21,049 bases of DNA, from positions 1-21,049 of the IMG/VR virus record IMGVR_UViG_3300044695_007798. One strand, 5' to 3'. Source of the stretch: a virus. Position numbers and translations under genes: made by a program. The notes under the pieces are model-generated. The model did not search any database and had not been told where the DNA came from. It was given only the letters and a program-made list of their open reading frames with translations. Positions 1,408 to 16,316 of the stretch are shown in pieces. The first letter of the stretch is position 1. Each line of letters begins with the position of its first letter.

Positions 1408-1416
1408 CGCCGCCCC

Positions 1417-1748: not shown

Positions 1749-1761
1749 GTCGACCTCCGCG

Positions 1762-5204: not shown

Positions 5205-5219
5205 TCAGGAGAGACCACC

Positions 5220-5699
5220 ATGCCCATTCAAGACCTACGGTGCCCCGTCTGCGAGGTCACCACCGAGAACGTGTACTACCGCATGTCGGGCGGGTTCCCC
5301 GCCTGTCCCGACTGCGGGGCGGAGCGCCGCGTGGATTGGAGCCACGGCTCCGCGCCGGCGGTGCACGGCCAAGGCTACGGCAGCTTCACGCCCATCGACA
5401 TGGGCGTGCTCGGCAAGGCTGAGACCAAGGAAGACTTCGACCGGATGAAGAGCACCATCGAGAAGCGCTTCCCCGGCCACCGCATCGAGCTCGAGAGCGA
5501 GACCAAGAGCCAGAAGCAGGCCCGCCTCGACGCGGTGCGCCACGCCAGGCACGAGCGCCATGCCAAGCTCGGCATCGGCGGCAAGATGGCCGACGAAGCT
5601 CGTGCCGAGGCCGGCGCCAAGAAGTCCGAGGCTCGCCGGGCCGCCGAGAGCAAGAACCTTCCTCCCCCCAAGCCCAAGAAGGCTGGAGCGCCCGCATGA
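5220..5699 (+). CDS. Zinc-ribbon protein, FmdB-like N-terminus
   Basis: 159 residues from ATG 5220, with CAGGAG upstream. C8 and C11 (CPVC) and C29 and C32 (CPDC) form a CxxC...CxxC zinc ribbon of the FmdB type. A middle section follows (GQGYGSFTPIDMGVLGKAET), then a long charged Lys/Ala/Glu helical region ending in a Pro/Lys tail. FmdB-like ribbons recur in phage head operons between portal and scaffold or capsid genes; their role is not established. The stop overlaps the next start (ATGA), indicating coupling. Zinc binding is inferred from spacing only. Confidence 0.75.
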   Translation: MPIQDLRCPVCEVTTENVYYRMSGGFPACPDCGAERRVDWSHGSAPAVHGQGYGSFTPIDMGVLGKAETKEDFDRMKSTIEKRFPGHRIELESETKSQKQARLDAVRHARHERHAKLGIGGKMADEARAEAGAKKSEARRAAESKNLPPPKPKKAGAPA

Positions 5700-5935
5700 A
5701 GACCCCCGACATTCGCGAGGCCGCCCGTAAGGCGGTCAAGAACTCGCGCGACATCCGCATCATCGGCGAGATGCCCGGCTACGACGCCATCGTGCTGGAG
5801 AACCGCGCGACGGGAGAGCGCCGTCGTGTGCCGAACAAGTTCATGCTGATGGCGGGCAAGCACCCGAACATCGCGTTCGAGATGGTTCCTCCGAGCCAGG
5901 GCTTCGAGGAAATGGAAGAGAACGTCGAGGAGTAG
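5696..5935 (+). CDS. Small hypothetical protein in head operon, 79 aa
   Basis: ATG 5696 overlaps the stop of the zinc-ribbon gene (ATGA). The N-terminus is basic and helical (IREAARKAVKNSRDIRIIGE), the centre reads as beta strands (YDAIVLENRATGERRRVPNK) and the C-terminus is acidic (EEMEENVEE). No family is recognised. Its size and position between portal and scaffold suggest an assembly or decoration role, which is inference. Confidence 0.7.
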   Translation: MKTPDIREAARKAVKNSRDIRIIGEMPGYDAIVLENRATGERRRVPNKFMLMAGKHPNIAFEMVPPSQGFEEMEENVEE

Positions 5936-5995
5936 CGGGCCGGCGCGTCCTCGTTCTACCTGTCCGGTTTCACTCAACCACGTTAGGAGGTCAAC

Positions 5996-6481
5996 ATGGC
6001 CGAGATGCAGAAGCAGGGCGGTATGCCCGGCGAGAACCCCAATGCGATCATCCCCCGTCGGGATGTGAAGCCTGTGGCGGATGAGCTCCAGCGCATCATG
6101 GAGGAGCTCGGCGAGGGAGACATGGGCCCGATGGGTGGCGCGCAGGGCGCCCCTGGCGAGATGCCTCCCGAAGGCGAGAAGCCGATGGCCGAGGGCGGGA
6201 ACGACGAGGCGATGGTGATCGCCGACATGCTCGACGTGTCCCCGGACAAGGCGATGCAGCTCCTCGAGGCAGCTCGCGCCATGCCCAAGTTCGCCAGCAT
6301 GAGCGCCGAGGAGATCGGCCAGATGCTCGCCAGCGACATGAACCTGCGCATGCAGGTCGAGAAGAACATCGGCGCGTCCCAGGACGGGATGGCGCGCGAG
6401 AAGATGGTCAAGGACCAGATGGGCCCCAAGGAGCCGCCGGTTCCCATGGAGCCCACGCCCGCCGGGGCGATGAAGAAGTAG
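5996..6481 (+). CDS. Met/Gly-rich helical phage protein, possible assembly factor
   Basis: 161 residues from ATG 5996, with AGGAGG six bases upstream. Acidic and Met-rich. There is a disordered Gly/Pro/Met stretch (about residues 42-68), then a helical section (VIADMLDVSPDKAMQLLEAA; MSAEEIGQMLASDMNLRMQV), and a Pro-rich tail ending AGAMKK. The composition resembles scaffold-associated or internal head proteins, but I recognise no named family. It precedes the coiled-coil scaffold-like gene by 19 bases with the same style of SD, so the two are probably co-expressed. Confidence 0.7.
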   Translation: MAEMQKQGGMPGENPNAIIPRRDVKPVADELQRIMEELGEGDMGPMGGAQGAPGEMPPEGEKPMAEGGNDEAMVIADMLDVSPDKAMQLLEAARAMPKFASMSAEEIGQMLASDMNLRMQVEKNIGASQDGMAREKMVKDQMGPKEPPVPMEPTPAGAMKK

Positions 6482-6500
6482 AACCACCAAGGAGGTCAAC

Positions 6501-7364
6501 GTGGACGAGATCGAGAACGTCGGGGCAGAGACGATGGAGACCGAGGAGGTCCAGCCGGAGTCCGAGCCAGTCGAAGAGGCGCCCAGTGTCTTTGACTGGA
6601 ACGGCGAGCTTGACTCTCTATCGAAGGCCGACTGGTACGCGCGGCTGGACGAGCCCCTGCGCAACACGCTTACGCGGGGGTTCGAACAGAAGTACCGCAA
6701 CTTCGAGCGGGGCTACACCAAGAGCTTCCAAGAGACGGCGCAGCGCCGCAGGGACATCGAGCGTCGTGAGGCCAAGCTCCGCGACGAGGAGCTCCGCATC
6801 CAGCGCTGGCTCACGGGCGACGCCGACCCCATGGCGGAGAAGCAGCGTGAGATCGAGCAGCTCAAGCTCGCTCACGAGACGGCGCTCCAGACGCTGCGGG
6901 ATGAATACGACCAGTCCGTCCGCAAGGCGGCTGACGAGTGGACAGGCAAGTACGGCACCGCCGAGCGCGAGCGCGACGAGCTCCGGCAGAAGCTCGAGTC
7001 GTTCGAGTACGAAGCCCGCCAGGCCGAAGAGCGCCAGGTCGAGGCGGCGGTCACCGAGGTTGAAGACTGGCTGAAGAGCGAGGCGAGCGACGTCTACTCC
7101 AACGACGACGCCTTCTACGCCTTCTGCGTGTTGTGCACCGGTGGCCTCGACCCCGAGGACGCGGTCACCATGGTGCGTGCGAAGTTCGGCGCGCCGCCTC
7201 CCCCCGAGCCGGAGCCTGTCCCCGAAGCCATGAACCTGATGAACATGGGCCCCAGCCGAGCCGCCTCGACGTCGCAGACCGAGAACCGCTCCTACAAGGA
7301 CATCATGGACCAGATGCGCCGAGCCGCCCAGTCGGACGAGTCGGCCTTCTACAAGGGTCGCTGA
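6501..7364 (+). CDS. Scaffold-like coiled-coil protein
   Basis: 287 residues from GTG 6501, with AGGAGG six bases upstream. After an acidic N-terminus comes an FDWNGEL motif and a helical domain (residues 30-75). A long heptad-like coiled coil rich in Glu/Arg/Lys/Gln follows (about 75-190), then a small folded section with two cysteines (FCVLCTGGLDPEDAVTM) and a C-terminal segment ending SAFYKGR. Length, charge, coiled coil and position at the end of the portal operon fit a capsid scaffolding protein that templates procapsid assembly and is then lost. The expected major capsid gene does not follow; non-coding DNA does. Confidence 0.7.
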   Translation: MDEIENVGAETMETEEVQPESEPVEEAPSVFDWNGELDSLSKADWYARLDEPLRNTLTRGFEQKYRNFERGYTKSFQETAQRRRDIERREAKLRDEELRIQRWLTGDADPMAEKQREIEQLKLAHETALQTLRDEYDQSVRKAADEWTGKYGTAERERDELRQKLESFEYEARQAEERQVEAAVTEVEDWLKSEASDVYSNDDAFYAFCVLCTGGLDPEDAVTMVRAKFGAPPPPEPEPVPEAMNLMNMGPSRAASTSQTENRSYKDIMDQMRRAAQSDESAFYKGR

Positions 7365-7378
7365 TTGTAATATTCGCC

Positions 7379-7407
7379 TTGACGCAGTAGGCGTCTGGCG
7401 ATACACA
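7379..7407 (+). promoter_or_regulatory. Sigma70-like promoter after the scaffold gene
   Basis: TTGACG (7379-7384), 17 bases, TACACA (7402-7407). The -35 is five of six to consensus; the -10 is weaker, and GATACA overlaps it at 15-base spacing. It lies 15 bases after the scaffold-like stop and points toward a folded, gene-free segment that ends at a strong terminator. Confidence 0.5.
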
Positions 7408-7413
7408 CCTCAT

Positions 7414-7540
7414 GCGCGGATCGTGCGTTCAAAGAAGACACGGGCTCTGAGAACAATCAATCCGCGTGAGTGCTGCTTCCATCGCTGTGTTCGTGGTGTG
7501 GGCCGTCGGGAGGGGAAACTCTTCCGGCGGTTTTACTTTG
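7414..7540 (+). ncRNA. Candidate small structured RNA, about 125 nt
   Basis: The segment runs from the predicted start of the 7379 promoter to the intrinsic terminator at 7503. CTCA-(TG)-CGCGGAT near its 5' end pairs with ATCCGCGTGAG (about 7460-7470) with a two-base bulge, enclosing CGTG/CACG. A second weak hairpin (CATCGC/GTGGTG) precedes the terminator. No open frame here has an SD or phage-like composition. The alternative is that this is only an untranslated terminator region of the head operon with a chance promoter. No known RNA family is recognised. Confidence 0.35.
7503..7539 (+). terminator. Strong intrinsic terminator
   Basis: CCGTCGGGAGGG (7503-7514) pairs with CTCTTCCGGCGG (7519-7530) over 12 positions, including three G-U pairs, around a GAAA tetraloop. 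TTTTACTTT follows. It ends rightward transcription from the head operon or from the promoter at 7379. Confidence 0.85.
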
Positions 7541-7550
7541 TCCCACACGG

Positions 7551-7583
7551 CAAAGAGACACCCCGCAAGTGTTCCCTGCGGGG
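7551..7583 (-). terminator. Terminator for the leftward transglycosylase operon
   Basis: CCCCGCA (7561-7567) and TGCGGGG (7577-7583) form a perfect seven-base stem with a nine-base loop. Read leftward the hairpin is followed by TGTCTCTTTG, a modest U-rich tract. It lies 67 bases past the last leftward gene, convergent with the rightward terminator beside it. Confidence 0.6.
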
Positions 7584-7649
7584 CGTCATACGAGCGCGGA
7601 GACGTACTCGCGCCGCTCAGGTGAGGGTGCTCTACGCCCTACCGAGACT

Positions 7650-7805
7650 TCAATGCTTTCCGACCTTCACGGCGACCTTCACGACCGGCTTCTTGACCAG
7701 CGCAGAAAGGTCAACCGGCTTGACCTTCTTGGTCTTGCCGTCGCCCGCCATGTCTTCCATGGCCTTCTTCTTCATCTCGCCGACCTTGGCGTAGTACTCG
7801 TTCAT
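7650..7805 (-). CDS. Small Lys/Val-rich basic protein, 51 aa
   Basis: ATG 7805 to TGA 7650. The SD AAGAGG is formed by the end of the transglycosylase gene, whose stop is two bases away. The sequence starts MNEYYAKVGEMKKKAMEDMA and ends KKPVVKVAVKVGKH. No domain is recognised; the charge suggests nucleic-acid or peptidoglycan contact. It is the last gene of the leftward cluster, followed by a terminator. Support comes from SD, spacing and continuity. Confidence 0.6.
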   Translation of the reverse strand: MNEYYAKVGEMKKKAMEDMAGDGKTKKVKPVDLSALVKKPVVKVAVKVGKH

Positions 7806-7807
7806 GG

Positions 7808-8626
7808 CTACCTCTTCTTGGCAGGCGCGGTGGCCGGCTTCTTGGGGGTGCTCTTGGGCGCACTCTTGGCGGTCTGCTTGGGCTTCGGGCTCTTCGCCGC
7901 CGCGGCCGCCTTCGCCTGCTCTTCGCGAGCCTTGCGCGCCCGTTCGGCGAGCTCGGCTGCGAGCTTCTGCTGGTACTCGGCCTCGGAGACGCGGACCTTT
8001 CCGTCCTTGTCGAACCGCAGCTTGAGGAACTCCGGGTTCTCGACCTTGGGCGTCAGCGGCGTCTTAGACTTCAGGCGCGCCGCGATCTTGGGCTCGATGT
8101 AGTCGGAGTAGACGACGTAGTTAACCGCCTCGTCCGGCAGTTCCGCGGTGGGGTTGGCGCCCCACTCACGATACCGGCCGATGCCGGCGTTGTACGCCAC
8201 GGCGCGGCCCTGCTTGGAGACCTTGCCCTTGACCCCCTCGGAGATGAGCTGGGCGGCGATGTCGGCGTCGCGCAGGAACGGGTCCTTGATGGACTTGTTC
8301 TCGAGCTTTCGGTTGTCGGGCATGATCTGAAACGGTCCGGAGGCTCCCTTCTCTGAGGTCTTCGGGTTGAGCGGGTTGGGCTCCGTCCGTGTCTCGACGA
8401 TGTGCTTGGAGATGAGCTCTACCGGGTCGACGCCGTGGCGCTGCGCAATGGGCACCAGCGCCTGGTACAGGGGCAGCGCGCGCTCGATGTTGTTGTCGAG
8501 GTACGCCTGGCTGAGCGCCCGAAGAGCGGGCTTGGGCAGCTCAGCGAGCCGCGTCTCCGCCATGGCGAGCCGGCGCGCGGTCGCTGCGGGGCTCTCGTCT
8601 TCGTTGTTTGGCCGCGGCTTCGCCAT
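7808..8626 (-). CDS. Lytic transglycosylase, SLT-like fold
   Basis: 272 residues. The catalytic core shows the expected order: a helix with the likely catalytic glutamate E78 (HIVETRTEPNPL), GASGPFQIMP (94-103), DPFLRDADIAAQLIS (115-129) and AYNAG (144-148). These are hallmarks of SLT family 1 enzymes, which cleave the MurNAc-GlcNAc bond of peptidoglycan to give 1,6-anhydro-MurNAc. There is no signal peptide, so it is more likely carried in the virion and used at DNA entry than secreted. The tail (about 215-272) is Ala/Lys/Pro-rich and probably disordered. Ordinary T in place of S after the catalytic E (ET for ES) is tolerated in the family. Confidence 0.85.
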   Translation of the reverse strand: MAKPRPNNEDESPAATARRLAMAETRLAELPKPALRALSQAYLDNNIERALPLYQALVPIAQRHGVDPVELISKHIVETRTEPNPLNPKTSEKGASGPFQIMPDNRKLENKSIKDPFLRDADIAAQLISEGVKGKVSKQGRAVAYNAGIGRYREWGANPTAELPDEAVNYVVYSDYIEPKIAARLKSKTPLTPKVENPEFLKLRFDKDGKVRVSEAEYQQKLAAELAERARKAREEQAKAAAAAKSPKPKQTAKSAPKSTPKKPATAPAKKR

Positions 8627-8627
8627 G

Positions 8628-9056
8628 TCAGAACTTCATCACGGTCTTCTTGAGGAACGCGGGCGGGCCCTTCTTGGCCTTGGGCGCAGACTTGGGCTCC
8701 TCCGCGGGGAGCTCCTCGGTGTCCTCGCCCTCATCCTCTCCCTCGTCCTCGCTCTCGGCTTCCATCTTCTCGTCCTCGCCCTCGAGCTTTCCGCTCATGG
8801 CGAGCTGGTCGAGCTTGGCCGCGGTGGCCTTGAGCTGGGCGATGACGCTCTTGAGGTCCATGGACGGGGACCCCTTGGCCTTGTCCATCGTGGCGACGTC
8901 GTAGCCCTTCGGGTCGGTGTTCTCATCCTCCTGGCCCTCGGCCATCTCGAAGACGGCGGGACCCATGGCGAGGGGCTCTTCCGACATCATCGGATCGAAG
9001 TATCCGCCGGGCCCCGCGGCCTTCTTCTTGGCGAGGATAAGGATGGACCCGTGCAT
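8628..9056 (-). CDS. Acidic phage protein, 142 aa
   Basis: ATG 9056, with GGAG a few bases upstream. N-terminus MHGSILILAKKKAAGPGGYF, a helical section (SVIAQLKATAAKLDQLAMSG), a strongly acidic stretch (about 93-118, repeated EDEGED), then a basic tail AKKGPPAFLKKTVMKF. I recognise no family. The acidic block plus a basic end could act as a linker or chaperone-like element for the transglycosylase encoded next (stop and ATG one base apart), which is inference. It is the first gene after the divergent promoter region. Confidence 0.65.
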   Translation of the reverse strand: MHGSILILAKKKAAGPGGYFDPMMSEEPLAMGPAVFEMAEGQEDENTDPKGYDVATMDKAKGSPSMDLKSVIAQLKATAAKLDQLAMSGKLEGEDEKMEAESEDEGEDEGEDTEELPAEEPKSAPKAKKGPPAFLKKTVMKF

Positions 9057-9074
9057 GCCTGCTCCGTTTGCGGT

Positions 9075-9103
9075 ACAGTACCACCGCCATGAGGTTCGAG
9101 CAA
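9075..9103 (-). promoter_or_regulatory. Leftward sigma70-like promoter
   Basis: Read leftward: TTGCTC (9103-9098), 17 bases, TACTGT (9080-9075). The start would fall about 10-15 bases before the 9056 ATG. The -10 is part of a perfect short palindrome (GGTACTGTACC), a possible repressor site. It faces away from the fibre-like gene at 9136. Confidence 0.5.
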
Positions 9104-9135
9104 TACCGCTCGGCTCGGTTCACAGGAGGTAGGTC

Positions 9136-9642
9136 ATGGCGGCATACGGTTGGATCGTTCGTAAGTTCATTCGCGACGGAGAGGTCACCACGGAGAAACT
9201 CGCGCCGGGCGCCATCACGGCGTCGAAGATCGCCAGCGGCTCCATCAACGGCTCCAAGATCGCGACGCTCGCCAACGCGGCCGGCGCGGGCACCGCCACG
9301 GCGATCACGCCCGGAGTGCAGTGCATCATGGGCATGAGCATCGCCGACGCGGCGAGCGCCATCTATGACTTCACTGTGCCCTTCAAGTGCGAAGTCCTCG
9401 ACGCCCAGGTCATCCAAGTCGGCGCGGGCAACGCGGGCAACAGCGTCACGATCAAGAACGCTGCCGGCACGGCGATCACGAACGCCATGAACAACGCCAC
9501 GGACAAGGGCGTCAGCCGCGCTGCGACCATCGACAACGCCAACAACACCATCGCCTCGGGCGCCGTGGTGAAGGTGGATGTGGTGAAGGCCGGTGGTGCG
9601 GCCGCGGTTGAGGTCTACCTCACCGTCGTGCCCGTCGTCTGA
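9136..9642 (+). CDS. Fibre/decoration-like structural protein
   Basis: 168 residues from ATG 9136, with AGGAGG upstream. The N-terminus has the repeating 'G.IT..KLA.GAIT.SKIA.GSI' pattern (residues 15-40) typical of phage tail or neck fibre stalks. The rest is a beta-rich domain with low charge (VTIKNAAGTAITNAMNNATD; TIDNANNTIASGAVVKVDVV) resembling small head- or tail-fibre domains found as repeats in many phages. There is no enzyme motif. It is transcribed alone, between a divergent gap and a hairpin terminator. It could be a receptor-binding or head-decoration protein; the precise location is not determinable. Confidence 0.7.
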   Translation: MAAYGWIVRKFIRDGEVTTEKLAPGAITASKIASGSINGSKIATLANAAGAGTATAITPGVQCIMGMSIADAASAIYDFTVPFKCEVLDAQVIQVGAGNAGNSVTIKNAAGTAITNAMNNATDKGVSRAATIDNANNTIASGAVVKVDVVKAGGAAAVEVYLTVVPVV

Positions 9643-9660
9643 TAGGCTGACGGACGACTG

Positions 9661-9697
9661 AGGGCCGGGGAGAGAGTTGATCTCGCTTCCCGGCCCT
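9661..9697. terminator. Strong hairpin between convergent genes
   Basis: AGGGCCGGG (9661-9669) and CCCGGCCCT (9689-9697) form a perfect nine-base stem with an inner GAG/CTC pair. It sits between two converging stop codons (9642 and 9705). No clear U tract on either side, so efficiency is uncertain; position supports a two-way terminator. Confidence 0.55.
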
Positions 9698-9704
9698 TCC
9701 TGCG

Positions 9705-10661
9705 TCAGGCGTTGGCCCACTTCACGGGCACGACGTGGCCTGGACCCCACGGGGTCTCCTGCACGACCATCTTCCGACCCCCCTTGTCGCTCCCAGGGAA
9801 CGGATCGAGGTCTTGGAAGCTCCGCTTGGAGCTCCAGTAGAAGTAGATCGGCGTCCCATCGACCATGCCCCAGTACCGAGACCACCCATTCTGGGTGTAG
9901 TAGTCGTGAAGAACCGCCTCGGGGACCGGAATCTTGTCGTTCGGGCCCACTTTCGACCAGCCTTCGGGCGTCGCGAGGTCCTCGGCGTCCTCCGGAGGCG
10001 CAGAAACGGGCTGATCGTCGCGATTTTCGGGCTGATCTTGCCGATTTTCCGCCTTCGCGCCCGACTTGTGGGCCCGCTCGAGGCTATCGAGGCCCCGAAT
10101 CAGCGCCATTCGGCCCACCGTCTCCGCCGTAACTTCGACTCCGAGCTCCTTGACATGCGGGAGCGCCTTGATAGTAGGAATAAGGCCGGTGATGCGTGCT
10201 TGAATATCGGCCTCGAGCCTGAGGGCCAGCAGTCCACGCGCTTCTGGGCCCGACTTCGTGTCGATAGAGCCGCCGATACGCTCGACTTGGGCTCGAGCCG
10301 AGGCGAACATGGCGCTTTCCAGGCGCTCCAGCCCGCCGCGCATGCCGGCGTCGTAGCTAGCCGCGTCGTCAAGGCGCTGCCGCATGGCCGTGTCGAGCTC
10401 CTTCGCTACTTCATGGCGCTTGGCGACCCTTGCGACGCCTTCTTCCGGCGTCTCGACCTCACGCAGCGCGGGCTTGTCGTTCTTCGACTGCTCCTCGTTG
10501 ACCCAGTCGGTGAGCTGGCGCATGCCGGTCGCGCCGACGCCGGGGATAATGACGTCGTCTTGACCGTCGAACCAAGACATGACGTCGAGGTCCGTATTGA
10601 AACCAGCTTTCAATAAGGCGTTGCGCAGGCGGAGCGGCAGTGGAAGATCGCTGACTAGCAT
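9705..10661 (-). CDS. Phage protein with RNA polymerase alpha-CTD-like N-terminus
   Basis: 318 residues from ATG 10661, GGGAGA five bases upstream. Residues 5-56 (PLPLRLRNALLKAGF; IIPGVGATGMRQLTDWV) align by eye with the C-terminal domain of RNA polymerase alpha: the leading L.L.R..N helix, the middle helix and the PGxG helix-hairpin-helix. R11 and N14 fall where E. coli R265 and N268, which contact UP-element DNA, lie; K298 and S299 are not kept. A helical middle (residues 100-210) includes LGVEVTAETVGRMALIRGLD, ribbon-helix-helix-like. A Gln/Asp/Pro linker and a Trp/Tyr-rich C-terminal domain follow. It could bind DNA or host polymerase. Its upstream region holds two copies of the phage dyad. 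Confidence 0.7.
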   Translation of the reverse strand: MLVSDLPLPLRLRNALLKAGFNTDLDVMSWFDGQDDVIIPGVGATGMRQLTDWVNEEQSKNDKPALREVETPEEGVARVAKRHEVAKELDTAMRQRLDDAASYDAGMRGGLERLESAMFASARAQVERIGGSIDTKSGPEARGLLALRLEADIQARITGLIPTIKALPHVKELGVEVTAETVGRMALIRGLDSLERAHKSGAKAENRQDQPENRDDQPVSAPPEDAEDLATPEGWSKVGPNDKIPVPEAVLHDYYTQNGWSRYWGMVDGTPIYFYWSSKRSFQDLDPFPGSDKGGRKMVVQETPWGPGHVVPVKWANA

Positions 10662-10684
10662 GTGTGTCTCCCGTCGATGAGCAT
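10655..10684 (-). CDS. Possible 9-codon leader peptide
   Basis: ATG 10684 has a perfect GGAGG five bases upstream and encodes MLIDGRHTC before TAG. It overlaps the start of the alpha-CTD-like gene by seven bases (ATGCTAG). A leader with a better SD than the gene it overlaps would couple or restrain translation. It may equally be a chance short frame. Confidence 0.3.
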   Translation of the reverse strand: MLIDGRHTC

Positions 10685-10708
10685 GGTGGCCTCCAGGCAG
10701 ACGGCGTA

Positions 10709-10723
10709 ACACCGCAACGGTAT
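10709..10723. promoter_or_regulatory. Dyad site 1 (ACACCG-CAA-CGGTAT)
   Basis: 15-bp interrupted palindrome, one mismatch from ATACCG-N3-CGGTAT. It lies 48 bases upstream of the alpha-CTD-like gene ATG, where a regulator would affect its promoter. Confidence 0.5.
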
Positions 10724-10782
10724 GACGACCACGCCAAAGCGCGAGCAGGCTGGGCCGCGCAGCGGTCCTGCCAGCATGCGTG

Positions 10783-10797
10783 TTACCGGAGTGGTAT
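10783..10797. promoter_or_regulatory. Dyad site 2 (TTACCG-GAG-TGGTAT)
   Basis: Same symmetry and spacing as site 1, with two mismatches to the ideal palindrome, 74 bases away (about seven helical turns). An A-rich tract lies just beyond it in the leftward direction, which could be an UP element. Confidence 0.45.
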
Positions 10798-10990
10798 GGG
10801 TGTTTGGAATTTTTTACTCGCCAATGGAAACGGCTTTCGGATTGGGGACCCCGGATCATCACAATCGGGGTATGGGGCCTTGTCGCTTCGATTACGCGGC
10901 GCGCGACGCGGCGTTGCGGCGCCGGCGCTGCGGTGGTGGCGCGCGCTTGCGTGGGCGGGGTGGGTCGCGCTCGCGGCGGGTGGGGCAAGC

Positions 10991-11085
10991 GAGCCGGAGC
11001 CGGAGCCGGAGCGAGCCGGAGCGTGAGCCGGAGCGGCGCCGCGCGTGGGCGAGCCGGAGCGGGTGAGCCGAGCCGAGCCGAGCCG
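10991..11085. repeat. GAGCCG low-complexity repeat block
   Basis: About eight near-perfect GAGCCG or AGCCG units in 95 bases with short interruptions (GAGCGT, GAGCGG). It is GC-rich and strongly purine-skewed on the plus strand between interruptions. It sits in non-coding DNA. It could be a slippage-expanded simple repeat or a set of protein-binding units. Confidence 0.75.
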
Positions 11086-11140
11086 TGAGGCGGACGCCCG
11101 AGCGAGCCGCGGCGGAGCGGGGCCCTAGCGGGGCTTGCCC

Positions 11141-11180
11141 ACGATCCATTGCACGCGACGATCCGCGTGCAACGGATCGT
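11141..11180. repeat. 17-bp inverted repeat with one mismatch
   Basis: ACGATCCATTGCACGCG (11141-11157) and CGCGTGCAACGGATCGT (11164-11180) flank a six-base spacer, ACGATC. Sixteen of 17 pairs match. As DNA it is a large operator or origin dyad; as RNA it is a very stable hairpin. No U tract follows, so it is not an obvious terminator. Confidence 0.75.
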
Positions 11181-11229
11181 CGGGCCTCACGTTGTCGAAG
11201 AGCGGGGGAGCGTTCCCGCCCCCACGATC

Positions 11230-11260
11230 TACATGTACCACGGGGCGCCAAATATGCAAG
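11230..11260 (+). repeat. 31-bp repeat copy A
   Basis: Matches copy B (11327-11357, opposite strand) at 26 of 31 bases. Shared blocks are TACATGTA, CACGGGGC and ATGCAAG. The core CCACGGGGC recurs inside the promoter spacer at 11454-11482, so these may be promoter-like or regulator-binding elements. Confidence 0.7.
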
Positions 11261-11326
11261 GTCCCGTAGCGCGAATATTGTCTTGTTCCCTGGTGAGCGC
11301 CCCCGCGGAAAATCGTGCGCCCCGCT

Positions 11327-11357
11327 CTTGCATGTTCCGGGCCCCGTGCTACATGTA
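11327..11357 (-). repeat. 31-bp repeat copy B, inverted
   Basis: Inverted partner of copy A, 26 of 31 identical when read on the minus strand, with the same TACATGTA, CACGGGGC and ATGCAAG blocks. The pair faces each other across 66 bases. Confidence 0.7.
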
Positions 11358-11453
11358 TTGTGTGCGGCGAGGGTCCTATCCCCTCCGACGCCGAAGCCCC
11401 TGAGGGGGCACGAGCCCCGGAACGACGACAAGCGAAAGTCTGAAGATTCTCCC

Positions 11454-11482
11454 TTGACGTACACCACGGGGCACGGTACATA
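11454..11482 (+). promoter_or_regulatory. Rightward promoter toward the Cys-rich gene
   Basis: TTGACG (11454-11459), 17 bases, TACATA (11477-11482), with TATAGA overlapping just after. The spacer contains CCACGGGGC, the core of the 31-bp repeats. A transcript from here would carry an untranslated leader of more than 300 bases before the ATG at 11814. Confidence 0.5.
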
Positions 11483-11572
11483 TAGAACATCAAGGGAAGG
11501 AACGCGGCGCCGCAAGGCTCGCAGCCCCTCCCCCGCTCTCTGACAACCTAGCCGCCACCGCGCGGACGCGAA

Positions 11573-11625
11573 TAGGGGACGTTGCCCCTAGGTCTACACT
11601 CCGCCGCTTCACACGCGGCGGGTAG
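11573..11625 (+). promoter_or_regulatory. Paired hairpins in the long leader
   Basis: TAGGGG/CCCCTA (11573-11590, six-base loop) is followed by CCGCCGC/GCGGCGG (11601-11621, seven-base loop). The second is extended by CTAC/GTAG across a three-base bulge. Neither is followed by a U tract. They could be leader RNA structures or single-strand origin features. Confidence 0.45.
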
Positions 11626-11672
11626 CCTTCAGGGCCCGTACCTGTGACGGACCTTGAGGCCTACCCGATAGC

Positions 11673-11687
11673 ATACCGCAACGGAAT
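11673..11687. promoter_or_regulatory. Dyad site 3 (ATACCG-CAA-CGGAAT)
   Basis: One mismatch from the ideal 15-bp palindrome. It is followed by ATGTTA, so TATGTT (11687-11692) falls at the same offset as the -10 at the 13468 site. This stretch and the 13468 site match at 16 of 17 bases. It lies 127 bases before the Cys-rich gene. Confidence 0.6.
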
Positions 11688-11762
11688 ATGTTACGGATAG
11701 TCGCGCCCTAGGGCCCCGCCGTTCAACGCGGAGCCCTTAGGGCTACCCTACCCTACCCCATA

Positions 11763-11808
11763 CCCTAGAACGCGCTCCTGAGCGTTCCTAGGGCCCTTCC
11801 AGAGGAAG
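11763..11808 (+). promoter_or_regulatory. Hairpin and SD-masking stem before 11814
   Basis: CCCTAGAACGC (11763-11773) pairs with GCGTTCCTAGGG (11782-11793) with one bulged base. Immediately after, CTTCC (11796-11800) pairs with GGAAG (11804-11808), which is the SD of the gene at 11814. The arrangement could restrain translation until the stem is opened. Confidence 0.4.
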
Positions 11809-11813
11809 ATACC

Positions 11814-12485
11814 ATGCTGAACGATACCGATATCCTTTGGGCTCCGCGGAGCCGCAACGTCAAGACGGGCGACGTACCTACGGCGTGGGTCGGCCTGAGC
11901 AAGAGCGCGGGCCTTGAGTCGTGCCGCGGGTGCCCCATGGCCCCGCGGAGTGTCGGCGGCGACGGGTCGTGTTACTCGCATAGCGGCTCCCCCGCGATTG
12001 CGGCCTCTTCCATCCGGAAGGCTGCGGCCCGCGGCGTGGCCCGCGACCTGACGGCGGCGCTCCGTGAGTCTAGCCGAGCAGCTCGCATGGTCCGGTACAC
12101 GGCTATTGGCGACGGCGGGCGCGTTGCCCCCGGCGTGGCGGACAAGATCGTCTCCACGGTCAAGGCCGCCGGCCTTGCCTTCGTCGGCTATACGCACCAT
12201 TGGCGGGAAGCTCAGGTAGCTACCGACTGGCGCGGTCGGCTTATGGCTTCCGTCGGCTCCCTCGCTGAAGCGGACGAAGCCCTTGCGCAGGGCTGGAGGG
12301 CCGCGGCGGTCGTCTCCGTCGATCATCCGGCGCGGAGCGTGACGCCCCAGGGCGCGCGGGTCGTTGTGTGCCCGGCCCAGGTCTCGGACGGTCGTGTGAC
12401 CTGCAATGATTGCCGCCTGTGCGACGCTAGCCGTCCCGGTCCCGTGATCGCCTTCCGTGAGCACGGTAACGGCGTCAAGCGCTAG
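11814..12485 (+). CDS. Cysteine-rich conserved phage protein, unknown function
   Basis: 223 residues from ATG 11814 with AGGAAG five bases upstream. Cysteines are arranged as C37-x2-C40 and C53 near the start and C186, C197-x2-C200-x2-C203 near the end, with CYSHSG (52-57), YTHHW (126-130), LMAS and CDASRPGP between. I recall this layout (KTGDVPT, GYTHHWRE, CPAQ, C.DC.LC) as a widespread phage and bacterial family of unknown function, possibly the one named DUF7227; the accession is from memory. The two Cys groups suggest a bound metal or iron-sulfur cluster in a barrel-like fold, which is inference. It is monocistronic, after a long structured leader. Confidence 0.8.
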   Translation: MLNDTDILWAPRSRNVKTGDVPTAWVGLSKSAGLESCRGCPMAPRSVGGDGSCYSHSGSPAIAASSIRKAAARGVARDLTAALRESSRAARMVRYTAIGDGGRVAPGVADKIVSTVKAAGLAFVGYTHHWREAQVATDWRGRLMASVGSLAEADEALAQGWRAAAVVSVDHPARSVTPQGARVVVCPAQVSDGRVTCNDCRLCDASRPGPVIAFREHGNGVKR

Positions 12486-12497
12486 TCGCGAGAAGAG

Positions 12498-12540
12498 GGG
12501 GTCCGTCTTGATATTGATAATCGTTTTCAATACGGACCCC
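12498..12540 (+). promoter_or_regulatory. Large hairpin containing a Fur-box-like dyad
   Basis: GGGGTCCGT (12498-12506) and ACGGACCCC (12532-12540) form a perfect nine-base stem, with TATTGA/TCAATA inside it. The interior 12510-12528 matches the 19-base Fur consensus GATAATGATAATCATTATC at 16 positions. It begins 12 bases after the Cys-rich gene stop. It could be a terminator lacking a U tract, an operator, or both. Confidence 0.45.
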
Positions 12541-12829
12541 TGCGTATCGGCAAAGCCTAACGATCACGGAATCATACCAAGAGAGATCTAGATCGTTACG
12601 TTGTTACGTTCTGTGATCATAGGGTCTACGGATATTCATAGAGATCTAAGATCCTGTAGATCGATCTAAGTTACTAACGGTCGCTCCTGTGCCGGCTGAC
12701 GTAACGCGTAACGCCCCCACGATCTGCGCCAGCAGCGGATCGCCGATACCGCCGCCTGTTACACCTTAAAGATCAGGGGTTTACAGGATCGTCAACGATT
12801 ACCGTAGCTTGCGGGTCAACGTCTAGACG

Positions 12830-12844
12830 ATACCGCGGCGGCAA
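12830..12844. promoter_or_regulatory. Weak dyad-like site before the 12863 promoter
   Basis: ATACCG-CGG-CGGCAA keeps the left half and the CGG of the right half. It is followed by AATATGG, as at site 3. It lies about 20 bases upstream of the -35 of the next promoter. A weak match, listed for its position. Confidence 0.3.
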
Positions 12845-12851
12845 ATATGGA

Positions 12852-12891
12852 CACGTCAGGGCTTGACGTGGACCCGCGAACCCCATAAGTA
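12852..12891 (+). promoter_or_regulatory. Promoter with palindrome over the -35
   Basis: TTGACG (12863-12868), 17 bases, TAAGTA (12886-12891), about 15-20 bases before the SD of the 12914 gene. CACGTCA (12852-12858) and TGACGTG (12864-12870) form a perfect seven-base dyad over the -35, so a bound repressor would block polymerase. Confidence 0.6.
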
Positions 12892-12913
12892 TCTAACACC
12901 GGAGGCCGACAAG

Positions 12914-13045
12914 ATGATCCCCGCTCCCTTCCTCTTCCTCGCCGACTGGGCCGACACGAGCCCGGGCACGTTCATCCCCGTGGGCGTGGCCGTCACGATC
13001 CTGTGCCTTGCCGCGGCTACCTTCCTCGCCCGTTCCATTCGCTAA
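12914..13045 (+). CDS. Single-pass small membrane protein, 43 aa
   Basis: ATG 12914 is chosen for its GGAGG nine bases upstream; a TTG further up at 12863 falls inside the promoter. A hydrophobic N-terminal part (PAPFLFLADWA) is followed by one clear membrane segment (IPVGVAVTILCLAAATFLA) and a short basic end (RSIR), suggesting N-out/C-in topology. Function is unknown; small early membrane proteins of phages often affect the host envelope or exclude other phages. It is the first gene of the rightward module, ten bases ahead of the next gene. Confidence 0.65.
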   Translation: MIPAPFLFLADWADTSPGTFIPVGVAVTILCLAAATFLARSIR

Positions 13046-13055
13046 GGAGATCCCC

Positions 13056-13439
13056 ATGCTCACGATCAACGATGCCCCCGCCTCTCTCAGCCCCGCCGGT
13101 GCGCTGCGCTGGCTCGCTCACAAGCTCGAGCAGGCCGCCGAGACGGCCGCCGATCATGCGGACCTGTGCCGCTCCGGCTCCATGCTGATCGACCTGCGCC
13201 ACGCGGCGGAAGCCTACGCGGCCGCCGCGGACCACAAGCGGGCCGCCGCCGGCTACATGGCTCAGGCGTACGGGCTGGAGGGCCGCGAGATCGACCGCTG
13301 CGTGTCGGGCTGGCACGCAGGCGACGCCGCCTGCTACGACGTTGCCGCCGCTGACGCCCGGGAGGAGCACGCCCGCCGTCAGGTCGAGGTCGCCGCGACG
13401 ATCCCCGCCTTCCTCGTCAACCAGGGCGCCACGATCTAG
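13056..13439 (+). CDS. Ala-rich helical protein, 127 aa
   Basis: ATG 13056, with AAGGAG six bases upstream. Almost entirely helical by composition: ALRWLAHKLEQAAETAADHA, LRHAAEAYAAAADHKRAAAG and YDVAAADAREEHARRQVEVA. Three cysteines are present (about residues 44, 82 and 93). No motif or family is recognised. Heptad-like Ala/Leu spacing suggests a helical bundle or oligomer. It belongs to the early transcript starting at 12863. Confidence 0.65.
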   Translation: MLTINDAPASLSPAGALRWLAHKLEQAAETAADHADLCRSGSMLIDLRHAAEAYAAAADHKRAAAGYMAQAYGLEGREIDRCVSGWHAGDAACYDVAAADAREEHARRQVEVAATIPAFLVNQGATI

Positions 13440-13459
13440 CGGGCCGCCTGCTTTCGCCC

Positions 13460-13487
13460 TTGCATCTATACCGCACCGGAATATACT
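13460..13487 (+). promoter_or_regulatory. Promoter with dyad site 4 in its spacer
   Basis: TTGCAT (13460-13465), 16 bases, TATACT (13482-13487), ten bases before the SD region of the 13512 gene. The 15-bp dyad ATACCG-CAC-CGGAAT (13468-13482) fills the spacer and touches the -10. This is the geometry of a repressor operator. Confidence 0.65.
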
Positions 13488-13511
13488 AGAAGCATCGGAG
13501 GACAAGAGACC

Positions 13512-13748
13512 ATGCACAAGCCCCTCAGCATCTCGACCAGCTACAGCGGCGCGACCGACACCCGCGGCTCCCGGATCATTGCCCGCGGCATGGGCCGTCA
13601 GGCCACGATCCCTTATGACTACGCGCTCCGCACCCTCGACCTCCACGACAAGGCGGCCCGCACGCTAGCGGATCGGCTGGGCGTGACGCTGGCGCAAGAC
13701 CCCTGCGACGGCACGTCCACCGGCTGGCGCTGGATCGTGACGGGCTGA
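13512..13748 (+). CDS. Conserved small phage protein, 78 aa
   Basis: ATG 13512 follows CGGAGGACAAGAGACC. The start 'PLSISTSYSGATDTRGSRI' and the IPYDYAL segment, then ADRLGVTL and a final GWRWIVTG, match a short protein pattern I recall from many phages and some bacteria ('IST.Y.GPT..RGSRI.A...... IPYD..L'), with no known function. It is predicted as a small alpha/beta fold. It has its own promoter overlapped by the phage dyad, so it is probably regulated separately from the genes before it. Confidence 0.75.
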   Translation: MHKPLSISTSYSGATDTRGSRIIARGMGRQATIPYDYALRTLDLHDKAARTLADRLGVTLAQDPCDGTSTGWRWIVTG

Positions 13749-13827
13749 GACCTCGACGCACGCCACGCATCCCGGGTGCGTGTCGTGAGCCGGTGCCTCA
13801 TCCGGACCTCACACTAGGAGCCCCACC

Positions 13828-14304
13828 ATGGACTATCTCGACGACAAGATGATCGACGCCGCGGGCCGCGACCTGCGCGGCATGCTGGCGGAGCGCTACG
13901 GCCTTCACCTCAAGGATCAGGGCTACGGGACGCTCGACGCAGGCGAGACCCGCCGCGCCGCTCCGGCCGGCTTCGCCTCCGGCAACGTAGGCGTGCAGGT
14001 TAAGCGGGACCGCACCGCGGACGTGCTCACGGTATGGCTCGACGCTGACGGCGTGCCGAGCGGCTCCTACGCCAGCGCGGTGGACCTGAACATGTACGAC
14101 GTCCCCGGCATCTATGACGCGCTGCGCCGCGCCCTCGGGACGGGCGGCTGGTGGGCCGTCCAAGCGGTCCACGACGGTACGGATCTCGCCCTTGTCGAGG
14201 TGCCCGAGGGCGAGGGCGGCGCGCCCTACGCCGAGGCCCTCGCCGACGCGCAAGATCAGGCGCGCGCCGCCGGTCCCAACTGCCGCGTCTACACCTTCGC
14301 CTAG
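13828..14304 (+). CDS. Hypothetical early protein, 158 aa
   Basis: ATG 13828, with TAGGAG nine bases upstream. Soluble and acidic; N-terminal helices (DKMIDAAGRDLRGMLAERYG), a likely beta section (NVGVQVKRDRTADVLTVWLD), then a further alpha/beta part (WWAVQAVHDGTDLALVEVPE) and a final helix-strand (ALADAQDQARAAGPNCRVY). I recognise no family. The gap before it (13749-13827) contains only a modest hairpin (CACGCA/TGCGTG) and no clear promoter, so it is probably on the 13460 transcript. Confidence 0.65.
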   Translation: MDYLDDKMIDAAGRDLRGMLAERYGLHLKDQGYGTLDAGETRRAAPAGFASGNVGVQVKRDRTADVLTVWLDADGVPSGSYASAVDLNMYDVPGIYDALRRALGTGGWWAVQAVHDGTDLALVEVPEGEGGAPYAEALADAQDQARAAGPNCRVYTFA

Positions 14305-14315
14305 AGGAGCACGCC

Positions 14316-14771
14316 ATGACCCGCACCGCCACGAAGCCCGCCGCCCCGGCGACCGAGACCGAGGCCACGATCAACACCGCCCGCCCGCCTGCGAGCGCCC
14401 GCCCCAAGGGGTGGGCCGCCGCCGAGGTGCAGCCCGTCACCCGCACCGATACGAGCCTGCCCGTCATGGGTGCATGGCTTCACCCCTCCGGGCGCCTCGC
14501 CGTCCACCGCCTGACCTACGAGGGCAACGTCCGCGGCTACATCGCCGTGGGGATCATCAACGGCAAGGCGTGGCGCATCGGCGAGGGCACCGCCGCCGAG
14601 GTGCGAGCGTGGGCCGCCCGGGCGGAGGCCGCGCTCGCTGAGCTGACCGAGGACGTATGGCGCGACCTCGACGCAGCGAGCGCAGCCGACCGGGAGGGCT
14701 GGCCCAGCCGCGCCCGTTCGTGGCCTGACTTCGCCCAGGTCATGCAGAATCACTACGCCACCCACGTCTAG
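14316..14771 (+). CDS. Hypothetical early protein, 151 aa
   Basis: ATG 14316 has GAGGAG six bases upstream and follows the previous stop by 11 bases. The first 50 residues are Ala/Pro/Thr-rich and probably disordered. A compact section follows (MGAWLHPSGRLAVHRLTYEG, then GYIAVGIINGKAWRIGEGTA), then a helix (ADVRAW-like EVRAWAARAEAALAELTEDV) and a Trp-rich end (WPSRARSWPDFAQVMQNHY). No family is recognised. It is co-transcribed with the gene before it. Confidence 0.65.
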   Translation: MTRTATKPAAPATETEATINTARPPASARPKGWAAAEVQPVTRTDTSLPVMGAWLHPSGRLAVHRLTYEGNVRGYIAVGIINGKAWRIGEGTAAEVRAWAARAEAALAELTEDVWRDLDAASAADREGWPSRARSWPDFAQVMQNHYATHV

Positions 14772-14815
14772 GCCGCCGGTCGCAGCGCGACGAGAGCCCT
14801 CCTCCGCGAGGTGGG

Positions 14816-14854
14816 TTGTCGTGGCGCCCCGACCTGCATATACCGTTGTGCTAT
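14816..14854 (+). promoter_or_regulatory. Promoter with dyad site 5 over the -10
   Basis: TTGTCG (14816-14821), 17 bases, TATACC (14839-14844). The dyad-like ATACCG-TTG-TGCTAT (14840-14854) overlaps the -10 and the likely start point. The right half is degenerate (four of six). It precedes the 14878 gene by 24 bases. Confidence 0.5.
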
Positions 14855-14877
14855 CACCTGTTCAGGAGGACCGACCC

Positions 14878-15150
14878 ATGAAGATCTTCTACGACAACGA
14901 GGCCCAGCGCCTCGCCTCCATCCGCAGCCATACCGCCTACATCCTGCGTGTCCTGCGCGAAGACGCCGAGGCCATGCTCCGCCTCCCGGCCAAGGGCAAC
15001 GCCTTCGCCCACGGCCGCGTCGACGCCTACGAGCGCGCCATCAGCCTGCTCTCCCTGATCCAGGGCTCCCTCGACGCGCCCATCATCGACCCGGACGCCG
15101 ACGCGGACGACGAGGTCGAGCCCGACTGGGCTCCCGACGCAGGGCTTTGA
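14878..15150 (+). CDS. Small acidic helical protein, 90 aa
   Basis: ATG 14878, with CAGGAGG eight bases upstream. Helical throughout (EAQRLASIRSHTAYILRVLR; DAYERAISLLSLIQGSL) and ending in an acidic tail (DPDADADDEVEPDWAPDAGL). The pattern resembles short phage proteins with two helices and an acidic C-terminus, but no family is assigned. It is under the promoter at 14816. Confidence 0.65.
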   Translation: MKIFYDNEAQRLASIRSHTAYILRVLREDAEAMLRLPAKGNAFAHGRVDAYERAISLLSLIQGSLDAPIIDPDADADDEVEPDWAPDAGL

Positions 15151-15212
15151 GTATCCACAAACGCAGCAACCCCGACGGCTATGCCGTAACACGATTGTCA
15201 ACGGAGACCACC

Positions 15213-15491
15213 ATGGAACGCGAGATCGAGATCATCGACCCGGTGAACAGCTACAGCCACGTCGCGAAGGTGCACTACTGGTACGTCGATGAGAGCGAAG
15301 GCGACGAGCGCCCGGACTACCGTCTCGACGTGGAGATCGTTGCCGTGAACGTGTCCGAGGAAGACGGCGTATCGACGCGCGACGTGGAGCCTGAGCCGTG
15401 GATGAAGCGCGCCGCTCTCCGCGAGCTTGAAAGCGAGCTGGACATGGAGCTTAGCGTTGCGTCGGAAGATCGCGACGTTGTGATCTTTTGA
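15213..15491 (+). CDS. Acidic hypothetical protein, 92 aa
   Basis: ATG 15213, with CGGAGA a few bases upstream. A beta-rich N-terminal half (REIEIIDPVNSYSHVAKVHY; YRLDVEIVAVNVSEEDG) and a helical C-terminal half (MKRAALRELESELDMELSVA). Very acidic, ending DRDVVIF. Acidic size-matched phage proteins are often DNA mimics or inhibitors, but no specific signature is present. The 62-base gap before it contains GTATCCACA (15151-15159), one base from a DnaA box. Confidence 0.6.
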   Translation: MEREIEIIDPVNSYSHVAKVHYWYVDESEGDERPDYRLDVEIVAVNVSEEDGVSTRDVEPEPWMKRAALRELESELDMELSVASEDRDVVIF

Positions 15492-15509
15492 AGCTTACAG
15501 GAGCTTATC

Positions 15510-15650
15510 GTGAACGACGCTCTAGATATGATCGTTGCGGGGGTCATGGTCCTCGGGACCATCGGCGCCTACAGTCTCATCTTCGTGGCTGCGCGCCAGC
15601 CCGCCGCCCACTTCGAGTACCGATGGAAGAAGAAGGAGGACAAGCCGTGA
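15510..15650 (+). CDS. Single-pass membrane protein, 46 aa, GTG start
   Basis: GTG 15510 has AGGAG seven bases upstream and the frame ends at TGA 15648. It has one membrane segment (MIVAGVMVLGTIGAYSLIFV, about residues 7-26) and a cytoplasmic-looking tail that is aromatic then Lys-rich (HFEYRWKKKEDKP). Its stop overlaps the next start (GTGA). Function unknown; it could be a holin-like or superinfection-exclusion protein, though a single membrane helix alone is not diagnostic. Confidence 0.6.
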   Translation: MNDALDMIVAGVMVLGTIGAYSLIFVAARQPAAHFEYRWKKKEDKP

Positions 15651-16081
15651 GGACGAATGAACCCCTGAGCGTGAAGCTCGAGCTATCCGACGACCGTGCC
15701 GTCGCGACCATGTGCCTGCCAGGGATGGGTGCAGGCGCCACCGTGACGCGCTCCGGGCGCGACGAGCGAGAGGCCCTGAGCGCCACCCTGCGCGCCCTCG
15801 CGGACCTCGTGGACAACCGCCACCGCGCGGCCAAGCGAGAGGGCGACACGACGTGGGTGCGCGTCTCCCTCGACGTGGATGTGAAGGTGGCGCAGGCCGA
15901 GGCCGACCGCGCCGAGACCTTGGAGAAGCGCTCGATGAACGGCGACCGGCAAGCCGCCGCCGAGGAGATGAGCCTCGCCATGTCGTGGATCGCCGCTGCG
16001 CTCCACGACGAGGACGCGCGCGACTGGCAGAGCTTCTCGTGGTCCTTCAGCGATGACTGCGAGGACTTCAATCTTGCCTAA
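15647..16081 (+). CDS. Hypothetical early protein, 144 aa
   Basis: Starts at GTG 15647, overlapping the previous stop (GTGA), with AAGGAGG at the expected distance. Upstream in-frame starts lie inside the membrane-protein gene and lack an SD. The N-terminal half looks like a beta domain (LSVKLELSDDRAVATMCLPG) with a helix REALSATLRALADLVDNRHR; a second strand-helix follows (TTWVRVSLDVDVKVAQAEAD), and the end is Trp/Asp-rich (ARDWQSFSWSFSDDCEDFNL). No family is recognised. It is translationally linked to both neighbours. Confidence 0.65.
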   Translation: MRTNEPLSVKLELSDDRAVATMCLPGMGAGATVTRSGRDEREALSATLRALADLVDNRHRAAKREGDTTWVRVSLDVDVKVAQAEADRAETLEKRSMNGDRQAAAEEMSLAMSWIAAALHDEDARDWQSFSWSFSDDCEDFNLA

Positions 16082-16292
16082 GCCCAAGCCGCACGTCGTG
16101 AGGATCGACTACACCAACTGGCGAGGCGAGCGGCGCATGCGCACCGTGCAGCCTCTTGAGTTCTACCTTGGCGAGGTGTCGTGGCACCCGGGTCGTCAAT
16201 GGCTGATGGACGCCATCGACCTGGAGCGCACCGACGACGACCGCACCCGCACCTTCGCCCTCTCCGGCGTCCACTCTTGGAGAGCCGCCTAA
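16074..16292 (+). CDS. Small WYL-like protein
   Basis: About 72 residues from TTG 16074, preceded by GAGGA eight bases upstream; ATG 16053 is an alternative without an SD. The order VRIDYTNWRGERRMRTVQP, WHPGRQWLMDAIDLE and RTFALSGVHSW recalls the core of WYL domains ('I.Y....G....R.I.P', 'W.L.A.D', 'R.F....I'), here in a short single-domain form found in phages and some bacteria. WYL domains usually sense ligands for transcription factors; a stand-alone copy has no DNA-binding part. The WYL link is an inference from the pattern. It is the last gene before a terminator. Confidence 0.65.
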   Translation: MPKPKPHVVRIDYTNWRGERRMRTVQPLEFYLGEVSWHPGRQWLMDAIDLERTDDDRTRTFALSGVHSWRAA

Positions 16293-16316
16293 CCTTGCGC
16301 AAGCCTGACCACCGAC

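Follow-up and report, generated by a model that had tools for sequence, protein, structure and literature searches.

Cro proteins are small helix-turn-helix (HTH) proteins. In phage P1, a single repressor, C1, acts on operators scattered across many promoters; these operators are asymmetric and serve plasmid lysogeny. Described here is a dispersed, palindromic element in IMG/VR virus record IMGVR_UViG_3300044695_007798. The window analysed is this entire record of 21,049 bases, with 66.6% G+C. It contains six copies of a 15-bp dyad, ATACCGNNNCGGWAT, which a first-pass annotation had read as the operators of a phage regulon. The dyads are probably operators of a phage-wide early regulon under a homodimeric XRE (HTH_3) repressor of about 106 amino acids. 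As with P1 C1, dispersed operators would serve one repressor, but the sites are palindromic here and asymmetric in P1. The dyad is conserved and more extensive than first seen, and its regulator is most likely encoded outside the window.

The Cro protein of phage PY54 is a lytic repressor that binds a single palindromic site of 16 bp (PMC4488713). Compared with the Cro type, the present system is alike in its putative lytic HTH repressor, in a palindrome of similar length and in divergent promoters, with binding being predicted here. It differs in having 4 to 11 sites per record over early promoters, and searches for an integrase or an S24-type CI partner were negative. The stoperators of mycobacteriophages are many genomic sites through which one repressor acts on early lytic promoters. 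PMC9283540 describes them as asymmetric sites for a monomer that has two DNA-binding domains; they stop elongation as well. Against that description, the sites reported here are palindromic and tied to promoter boxes, and the candidate protein has one HTH domain. T7 Gp5.7 is a small DNA-binding protein that represses host-polymerase promoters on the phage genome, has a winged-helix-like fold and also contacts RNA polymerase; it exemplifies how a lytic phage can gain from early-gene shut-off (PMC5569994). By comparison, the present candidate has a predicted XRE fold and, as its putative target, a sequence-specific palindrome. Among the top papers listed for early or dispersed phage operators, stoperators, lytic-phage Cro, P1 C1 operators and TACCG/CGGTA in open-licence literature, nothing concerned this operator or phage group.

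Dyad Sites in the Window

All six dyads are present where the first-pass annotation had placed them (Table 1). The copies at 11673 and 13468 are exact and agree, as had been claimed, at 16 of 17 bases; the copy at 10709 has one mismatch, and those at 10783, 12830 and 14840 have two. By our own gene calls, all six are non-coding. At up to 0, 1 and 2 mismatches the window has 2, 3 and 6 matches to ATACCGNNNCGGWAT. In 300 dinucleotide shuffles of the whole window the corresponding counts average 0, 0.04 and 1.08 and never exceed 0, 1 and 5, and no shuffle reaches the observed figures. At up to three mismatches there is no enrichment (19 matches against 16.5 expected). Such shuffles flatter the pattern because it was chosen after the sites were seen, and the case therefore rests on the relatives.

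Details of the first description changed. The sites were said to lie upstream of genes, which stands with the correction that the two leftmost copies precede a leftward gene with its ATG at 10661. At 13468 the dyad does lie between TTGCAT (13460-13465) and TATACT (13482-13487), with the boxes 16 bp apart and the dyad overlapping the first base of TATACT. At 14840 the proposed TATACC box consists for the most part of the dyad's left half, and by the register seen in relatives TATCAC is the likelier -10 box. The structural block (1-9704) was said to lack a good copy, and no matrix match above 10.0 was found there among scores listed from 9 up.

Table 1. Positions of the putative operator copies and associated features in the window
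Feature	Position	Strand	Context
Gene	9705..10661	minus	Below two leftward operators; weakly alphaCTD-like N-terminus, ribbon-helix-helix (RHH)-like middle by eye, strongly conserved C-terminus
Proximal operator copy ACACCGCAACGGTAT	10709..10723		Minus-strand reading enters TTACGC, likely -10 of leftward gene 9705-10661
Distal operator copy TTACCGGAGTGGTAT	10783..10797		Upstream of 9705-10661; matrix score 19.2; one of 14 training sites
GGGGACCCC block	10844..10852		Upstream of distal operator; belongs to conserved upstream module
Operator ATACCGCAACGGAAT	11673..11687	+	-10-like TATGTT at 11687-11692; upstream of DUF7227 gene 11814-12485
Weaker operator-like site	12830..12844	+	Score 13.9; upstream of open reading frame (ORF) 12914-13045
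Promoter of gene 13512-13748	13460..13487	+	TTGCAT at 13460, TATACT at 13482, operator ATACCGCACCGGAAT at 13468-13482
Weaker operator ATACCGTTGTGCTAT	14840..14854	+	Right half overlaps -10-like TATCAC at 14852; upstream of gene 14878-15150

Conservation in Related Phages

The relatives come from IMG/VR (G001-G013, 14-76 kb) and were read alongside the window (G000). The phage group is undescribed and is seen here in metagenome-derived contigs only. A phage collection of 50,697 records gave no match to the DNA of 10300-16300, to the portal or to the protein of gene 9705-10661 (the 9705 protein), and two scans of host genome contigs, made with short peptide patterns only, gave no portal relative. 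The gene calls missed or truncated starts in places (12087 against 11814 for the DUF7227 gene, 9705-10580 against 9705-10661), and the intergenic counts inherit these errors.

The distal dyad is present in all 14 readable, non-redundant orthologous regions upstream of gene 9705-10661, mostly as CCATACCRCNNCGGTAW on the minus strand; this locus was read by eye, and 15 partial 9705 matches were skipped. A second, looser copy occupies the slot of window site 10709 in 11 of the 14 and ends in G(T/C)TA(C/T), also by eye. In G005 and G006, TTGCCA or TTGCGA precedes the looser copy at the spacing of a promoter. A GGG(A/T)CCC block is found upstream of the dyad in 13 of the 14 regions (GGGATCCC in L135) and also in the distant genomes G017, G023, G025, G040 and G041. 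A search of 17 further genomes for a 9705 homologue was positive in 13, with none in G019, G021, G029 and G037. All 13 homologues have the dyad or a variant in the slot, as read by eye: TACC on both sides in seven, one TACC half with a near miss in G014, G017, G039 and G040, one TACC and one TGAC half in G038, and TTGACAACATGTCAA in G025. The site is thus conserved in related phages. The pairing in G025 of TTGACAACATGTCAA with the XRE helix SCSE, a possible operator switch, was not used as proof since it is a single genome.

Among nine listed relatives of the DUF7227 gene, a dyad with a score of 15.6 lies some 130-145 bp upstream in L027 and L035, and L019 has one of 12.0; the closest relative, L017 (75%), has none within 180 bp upstream. 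Gene 13512-13748 has four relatives, with an upstream dyad in G001 (L089, 18.5) and G008 (L043, 17.8), a hybrid TTGACGCCCCGGTAT in G005 (L019, 8.5) and none in L031. No ortholog was found for ORF 12914-13045 or for gene 14878-15150. The form TTACCGCNNYGCTAN, as at 14840, recurs upstream of genes in G001, G002, G005, G006, G008 and G009.

Genome-Wide Distribution and Putative Hybrid Operators

A matrix made from the 14 distal copies, with the central three bases neutral, was scanned across 12 records holding 61.8 kb of intergenic and 545.7 kb of coding DNA. These 12 records omit G010 and G012, with match identities the same as those of G002 and G006; G009, also near G002, was retained. A score of at least 13 is reached by 45 intergenic and 5 coding sites, a density ratio of 79, with the coding DNA about nine times longer. 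The counts are 30 and 0 at scores of at least 15, and 84 and 33 at scores of at least 9. With the training locus removed, 31 intergenic and 5 coding sites remain (ratio 54). Among 200 permutations of the half-site matrix, the best true rival reached 13 intergenic sites and the mean was 1.54, against 45 for the real matrix; a permutation that swaps two equal columns is the real matrix and not a rival. The sites are therefore not found in equal numbers within genes.

A hybrid form, TGAC-R-N3-Y-GGTA, has one TACC half replaced by TGAC. In the same 12 records it occurs at 36 intergenic and 6 coding positions and ranks first among 288 half-site pairs, itself included; the next best pair has 7 and the mean is 0.56. 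Pure TACC pairs number 13 intergenic and 0 coding, and pure TGAC pairs 2 and 7. In most hybrids, TGAC lies within a TTGAC -35 box, so that the -35 box doubles as a half-site. All 14 group records together give 28 unique hybrid promoters that read TTGAC(A/G)-N17, followed by a TA-initial hexamer in 22 and by a full TANNNT in nine; six of the 28 also have TANNNT at 12 bp. In our reading the hybrids, some of which are repeated between related records, group by position into about six promoter types. These are on both sides of the XRE gene, at three places in the leftward replication region, and at central genes.

When sites of either kind are counted in nine records (G000-G008), anchor locus included, the early half has 67 intergenic sites (1.75 per kb of intergenic DNA) and the structural half has two of the 69 (0.11 per kb), with 8 coding sites in total and 4 to 11 intergenic sites per record. 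The two halves are separated by a manually placed border, for which the 9705 gene and the XRE gene were the guides. De novo counts of palindromes in the group place ATACC-N5-GGTAT (22 intergenic, 2 coding) at rank two, after a hairpin-like CCGGC. In single distant genomes, where coding DNA was masked by ORF length alone, the same counts gave nothing clear beyond weak traces in G023 and G014, and exact intergenic TACC pairs number 0-2 in each. The broad regulon is evident in the close group only. An exact 17-mer was found at 8 loci in viral contigs, a figure without a chance comparison.

Promoter Register

The register of the dyad against promoter boxes was read in 63 unique intergenic sites with a score of at least 11.4 in 12 records (here G010 is in, and G012 and G013 are out), allowing TTGACA one mismatch. 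Relative to the dyad, TTGACA starts at -11 (10 sites), -10 (4), -9 (10) and -5 (2), with at most one site at any other offset. A TTGACA-like -35 box at a set distance is thus found in 26 of the 63 sites, each with TA 16-18 bp on and 11 with a full TANNNT. In every one of the 22 sites whose box starts at -11, -9 or -5, TA follows at exactly 17 bp (full TANNNT in nine), and in the four with the box at -10 it follows at 16 or 18 (full TANNNT in two). TANNNT starts at +12 (12 sites), +14 (8) and +18 (3); it also starts at +1 (15), -4 (7) and +7 (5), which is partly built in by the motif and its flank. Outside the anchor locus, a -35 box lies at -9 to -11 in 22 of 47 sites, compared with 1,221 of 61,475 intergenic positions (2.0%).

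TTGACA, a spacer near 17 bp and TANNNT, the marks of a sigma70-type promoter, are found together in the relatives. The dyad takes several positions against an unchanged promoter, and therefore behaves as an operator and not as a promoter element. This register, and the near absence of sites from the structural half, support the regulon operator reading of the first-pass annotation.

The Candidate Regulator

A 106-aa HTH_3 protein is among the core genes of the long relatives. Its gene adjoins, divergently, a SNF2-like helicase gene. The HTH_3 match (PF01381) scores 31.4 bits against a cut-off of 23, and one protein in each of nine of the 13 records (G001-G009) exceeds the cut-off, with none in G010-G013. 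The XRE proteins of G001-G009 are 65-82% identical to that of G005. TetR_N and RHH_1 gave no match over cut-off in G001-G009, with one sub-threshold TetR_N match in G006. The structural model of the XRE protein has five helices (15-26, 31-38, 42-49, 57-69 and 81-101), a mean predicted local distance difference test (pLDDT) score of 89.8 and a lambda-repressor-like fold. Most of the neighbours that Foldseek places beside it are XRE proteins, among them ClgR, C.BclI, HigA and SinR.

Upstream of the XRE gene, the close group has a back-to-back pair of -35 boxes, as a rule separated by 6 bp, and by eye each box adjoins a TACC-like half-site. An exact hybrid is found in 16 of 19 unique upstream regions of the close set; it occupies both sides in 5, the right side alone in 10 and the left side alone in 1, and is missing from 3. 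Six of the records G001-G009 have one, on both sides in G003, on the right in G004, G005, G006 and G008, and on the left in G007. Recognition helices were compared across XRE loci, of which 80 of 88 were kept; a parsed helix was missing from five rows and an anchor from several. In the 12 loci with helix SQSE the XRE gene's own operator reads TGACANNNTGTCA, and in the 11 with TQAE its left half is ACC. At the XRE gene's own promoter, the half-site thus goes with residue 43, although the SQSE and TQAE types may be two clades. Intergenic hybrids remain in the SQSE genomes G031, G032 and G034. The hybrids suggest one protein that tolerates both half-sites.

On position and uniqueness, the XRE protein appears to be the best candidate for the regulator, and we infer that it binds the dyads, is dimeric and represses on binding. 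The regulators suggested in the first-pass annotation were not borne out. The product of 16452 resembles a terminase small subunit (PHROG E 8e-5) and its HTH matches are sub-threshold only, and that of 19782 matches no family above cut-off. The third suggestion, the 9705 protein, is weighed below.

Several observations weigh against the assignment to the XRE protein and its promoters. A near-consensus -35 box at the usual distance is missing from all four rightward window sites, and none of them is among the 22 sites with such a box outside the anchor locus; for this reason the promoter geometry is convincing in the relatives only, and in the window only 13468 approaches a sigma70-type promoter. 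The dyad's GGTAT itself supplies part of the TA signal in the -11 class. The window, which is a fragment, has no HTH_3 match. The Foldseek E-values are weak (best 0.031, none at 0.001), and no sequence in the PDB matched the XRE profile. At the XRE gene, G001, G002 and G009 lack an exact hybrid, and by eye show degenerate ones only. Loci with TQPE or SQPE are mixed, with TACC, TGCC, AACC, TGAC and many ACC; for example, TGCC is found in L186-L188, L249, L250 and L253, and TGAC in L189-L191 and L212. TACC dyads persist in front of the 9705 homologue in the SQSE genomes G031-G033 and, in a matching context, in G034. The regulon therefore does not switch as a whole, and two proteins, or one tolerant protein, are possible. 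Lastly, site counts are not independent events, because closely related records are included.

Alternative Explanations

The reading rated second, though unlikely, is that the 9705 protein binds the dyads, regulates itself and controls the early genes, with the XRE protein limited to its own promoter. The dyad stands above this gene in all 14 group members and, intact or as a variant, in all 13 further genomes with a homologue, and SQSE genomes hold TACC dyads there although the XRE operator differs. The residues of the putative beta-strand that would read bases nevertheless vary (A/R, I/Q, A/D, V/T, S/T) among phages that share a constant dyad. The middle domain has no credible Pfam match in eight distant homologues, and RHH_1 gave none in nine records at E 1. 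G037, which is perhaps incomplete, has the XRE gene and a TACC dyad before another gene, with no detectable 9705 homologue. At a mean pLDDT of 60, the AlphaFold model of the protein is not good enough for a structure search. The first 55 residues of the protein have a weak match to the RNA polymerase alpha C-terminal domain (profile, best E 0.011), and one ortholog has an alphaCTD Pfam match below cut-off (E 0.026). The distant homologues examined are without this part, and their match starts at the middle domain. Searches of the open-licence literature for alphaCTD-like phage proteins mostly returned no paper.

Somewhat less probable still is a host transcription factor whose operator was adopted by the phage. 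Such a factor would fit the persistence of the dyad where phage proteins have diverged. Set against it are the many phage early promoters that carry the operator, the phage-encoded regulator beside them, and half-site changes in some lineages, which would be unexpected for a fixed host factor. It is improbable that the motif is a promoter element for an alternative sigma factor or a modified polymerase. Its tight tie to promoter boxes would suit such an element, but the motif is palindromic, takes several positions against ordinary TTGAC-N17-TA boxes, and in most distal copies above 9705-10661 stands without clear boxes (by eye). The lack of window enrichment at up to three mismatches is what a chance or compositional coincidence picked by eye would give; the excess over shuffles and permuted matrices, the anchor-free scan, the hybrid ranking and the register in relatives make coincidence barely credible.

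Proposed Mechanism

In the XRE repressor reading, a homodimer would bind palindromes of 13-15 bp made of two half-sites, T(AC or GA)C. These operators would sit inside sigma70-type promoters that are read by the host RNA polymerase. At the central rightward early genes, the dimer would cover the spacer and the -10 box. In the replication region and at the XRE gene itself, it would cover the -35 box, with TTGAC as one half-site. The bound dimer would exclude RNA polymerase. As the XRE protein accumulates, it would shut the early promoters and its own in a Cro-like early shut-off; this order is proposed because the divergent XRE promoters themselves bear such sites. MerR-like activation needs a longer promoter spacer. 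Steric repression is therefore favoured, since the sites overlap the spacer, the -10 or the -35 box and the spacer is the normal 17 bp.

Integrase (PF00589) was found in none of 13 records, and resolvase (PF00239) in none of 16, with a control found in 10 of 14 genomes. S24 peptidase (PF00717) was found in none of nine records (G001-G009), and repressors of other types were not sought. Several of the records are fragments, which bears on these absence calls. Lytic Cro-like shut-off is therefore likelier than maintenance of lysogeny.

Other Sequence Features

Besides small rightward genes at 11.8-16.3 kb, the window encodes a terminase, a P22/SU10-like portal and a DUF927 primase-helicase. At 5956-5985, CTACCTNNCCGGTTTCA...AACC lies just before gene 5996-6481 and is found in the same place in G001-G003 and G005-G008. 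As a dyad it scores weakly (10.0 in the window), but the stretch looks like a hairpin, GGTTT-loop-AAACC, close to the ribosome site. In the non-coding stretch before the DUF7227 gene, a second motif, TACATGTACCACGGGGC, is repeated and partly inverted (11230-11249, 11340-11359 and 11460-11485); these repeats are possibly another binding site or an origin. Beyond the conserved upstream module, 10900-11140 is made up of low-complexity GC-rich GAGCCGGAGC-like repeats, and several relatives have other such DNA there.

At several operator promoters in the central region of relatives, for example in G005 (45605), G003 (27661) and G007 (43302), a CCGGC-loop-GCCGG leader hairpin follows the promoter and precedes the ribosome site, by eye. 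The promoter of the major capsid gene in G001-G004 and G007 has a dyad-like element that is one base longer (ATACCCACAGCGGTAT in G001 and G002). It is placed between TTGCGC or TTGCAC and the -10 region and is not evident in G005, G006 and G029, also by eye. This late promoter may share the same control. Above the major capsid gene (for example in L130, shortly above 10912 on the minus strand), a block of about 70 nt reads GCACCC...CGGGTAGCCC-loop-GGGTCCG...GGGCAGGCG in close and distant relatives. It was rejected as a structured RNA, with no pair changed on both sides and no Rfam match.

Implications

At close to an even chance, this is an apparently non-integrating lineage with a Cro-without-CI circuit, in which one XRE repressor would shut most host-polymerase early promoters and its own. 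It would do so either through a -35 half-site or through a dyad stepped against the 17 bp spacer. The outcome would be a control code for early genes that can be read from the genome, names a likely regulator and predicts its target promoters. Where the -35 box doubles as a half-site, operator and promoter would have to evolve together. Such a code may be of use in predicting immunity between phages of this kind and in timing gene expression without a cultured host.

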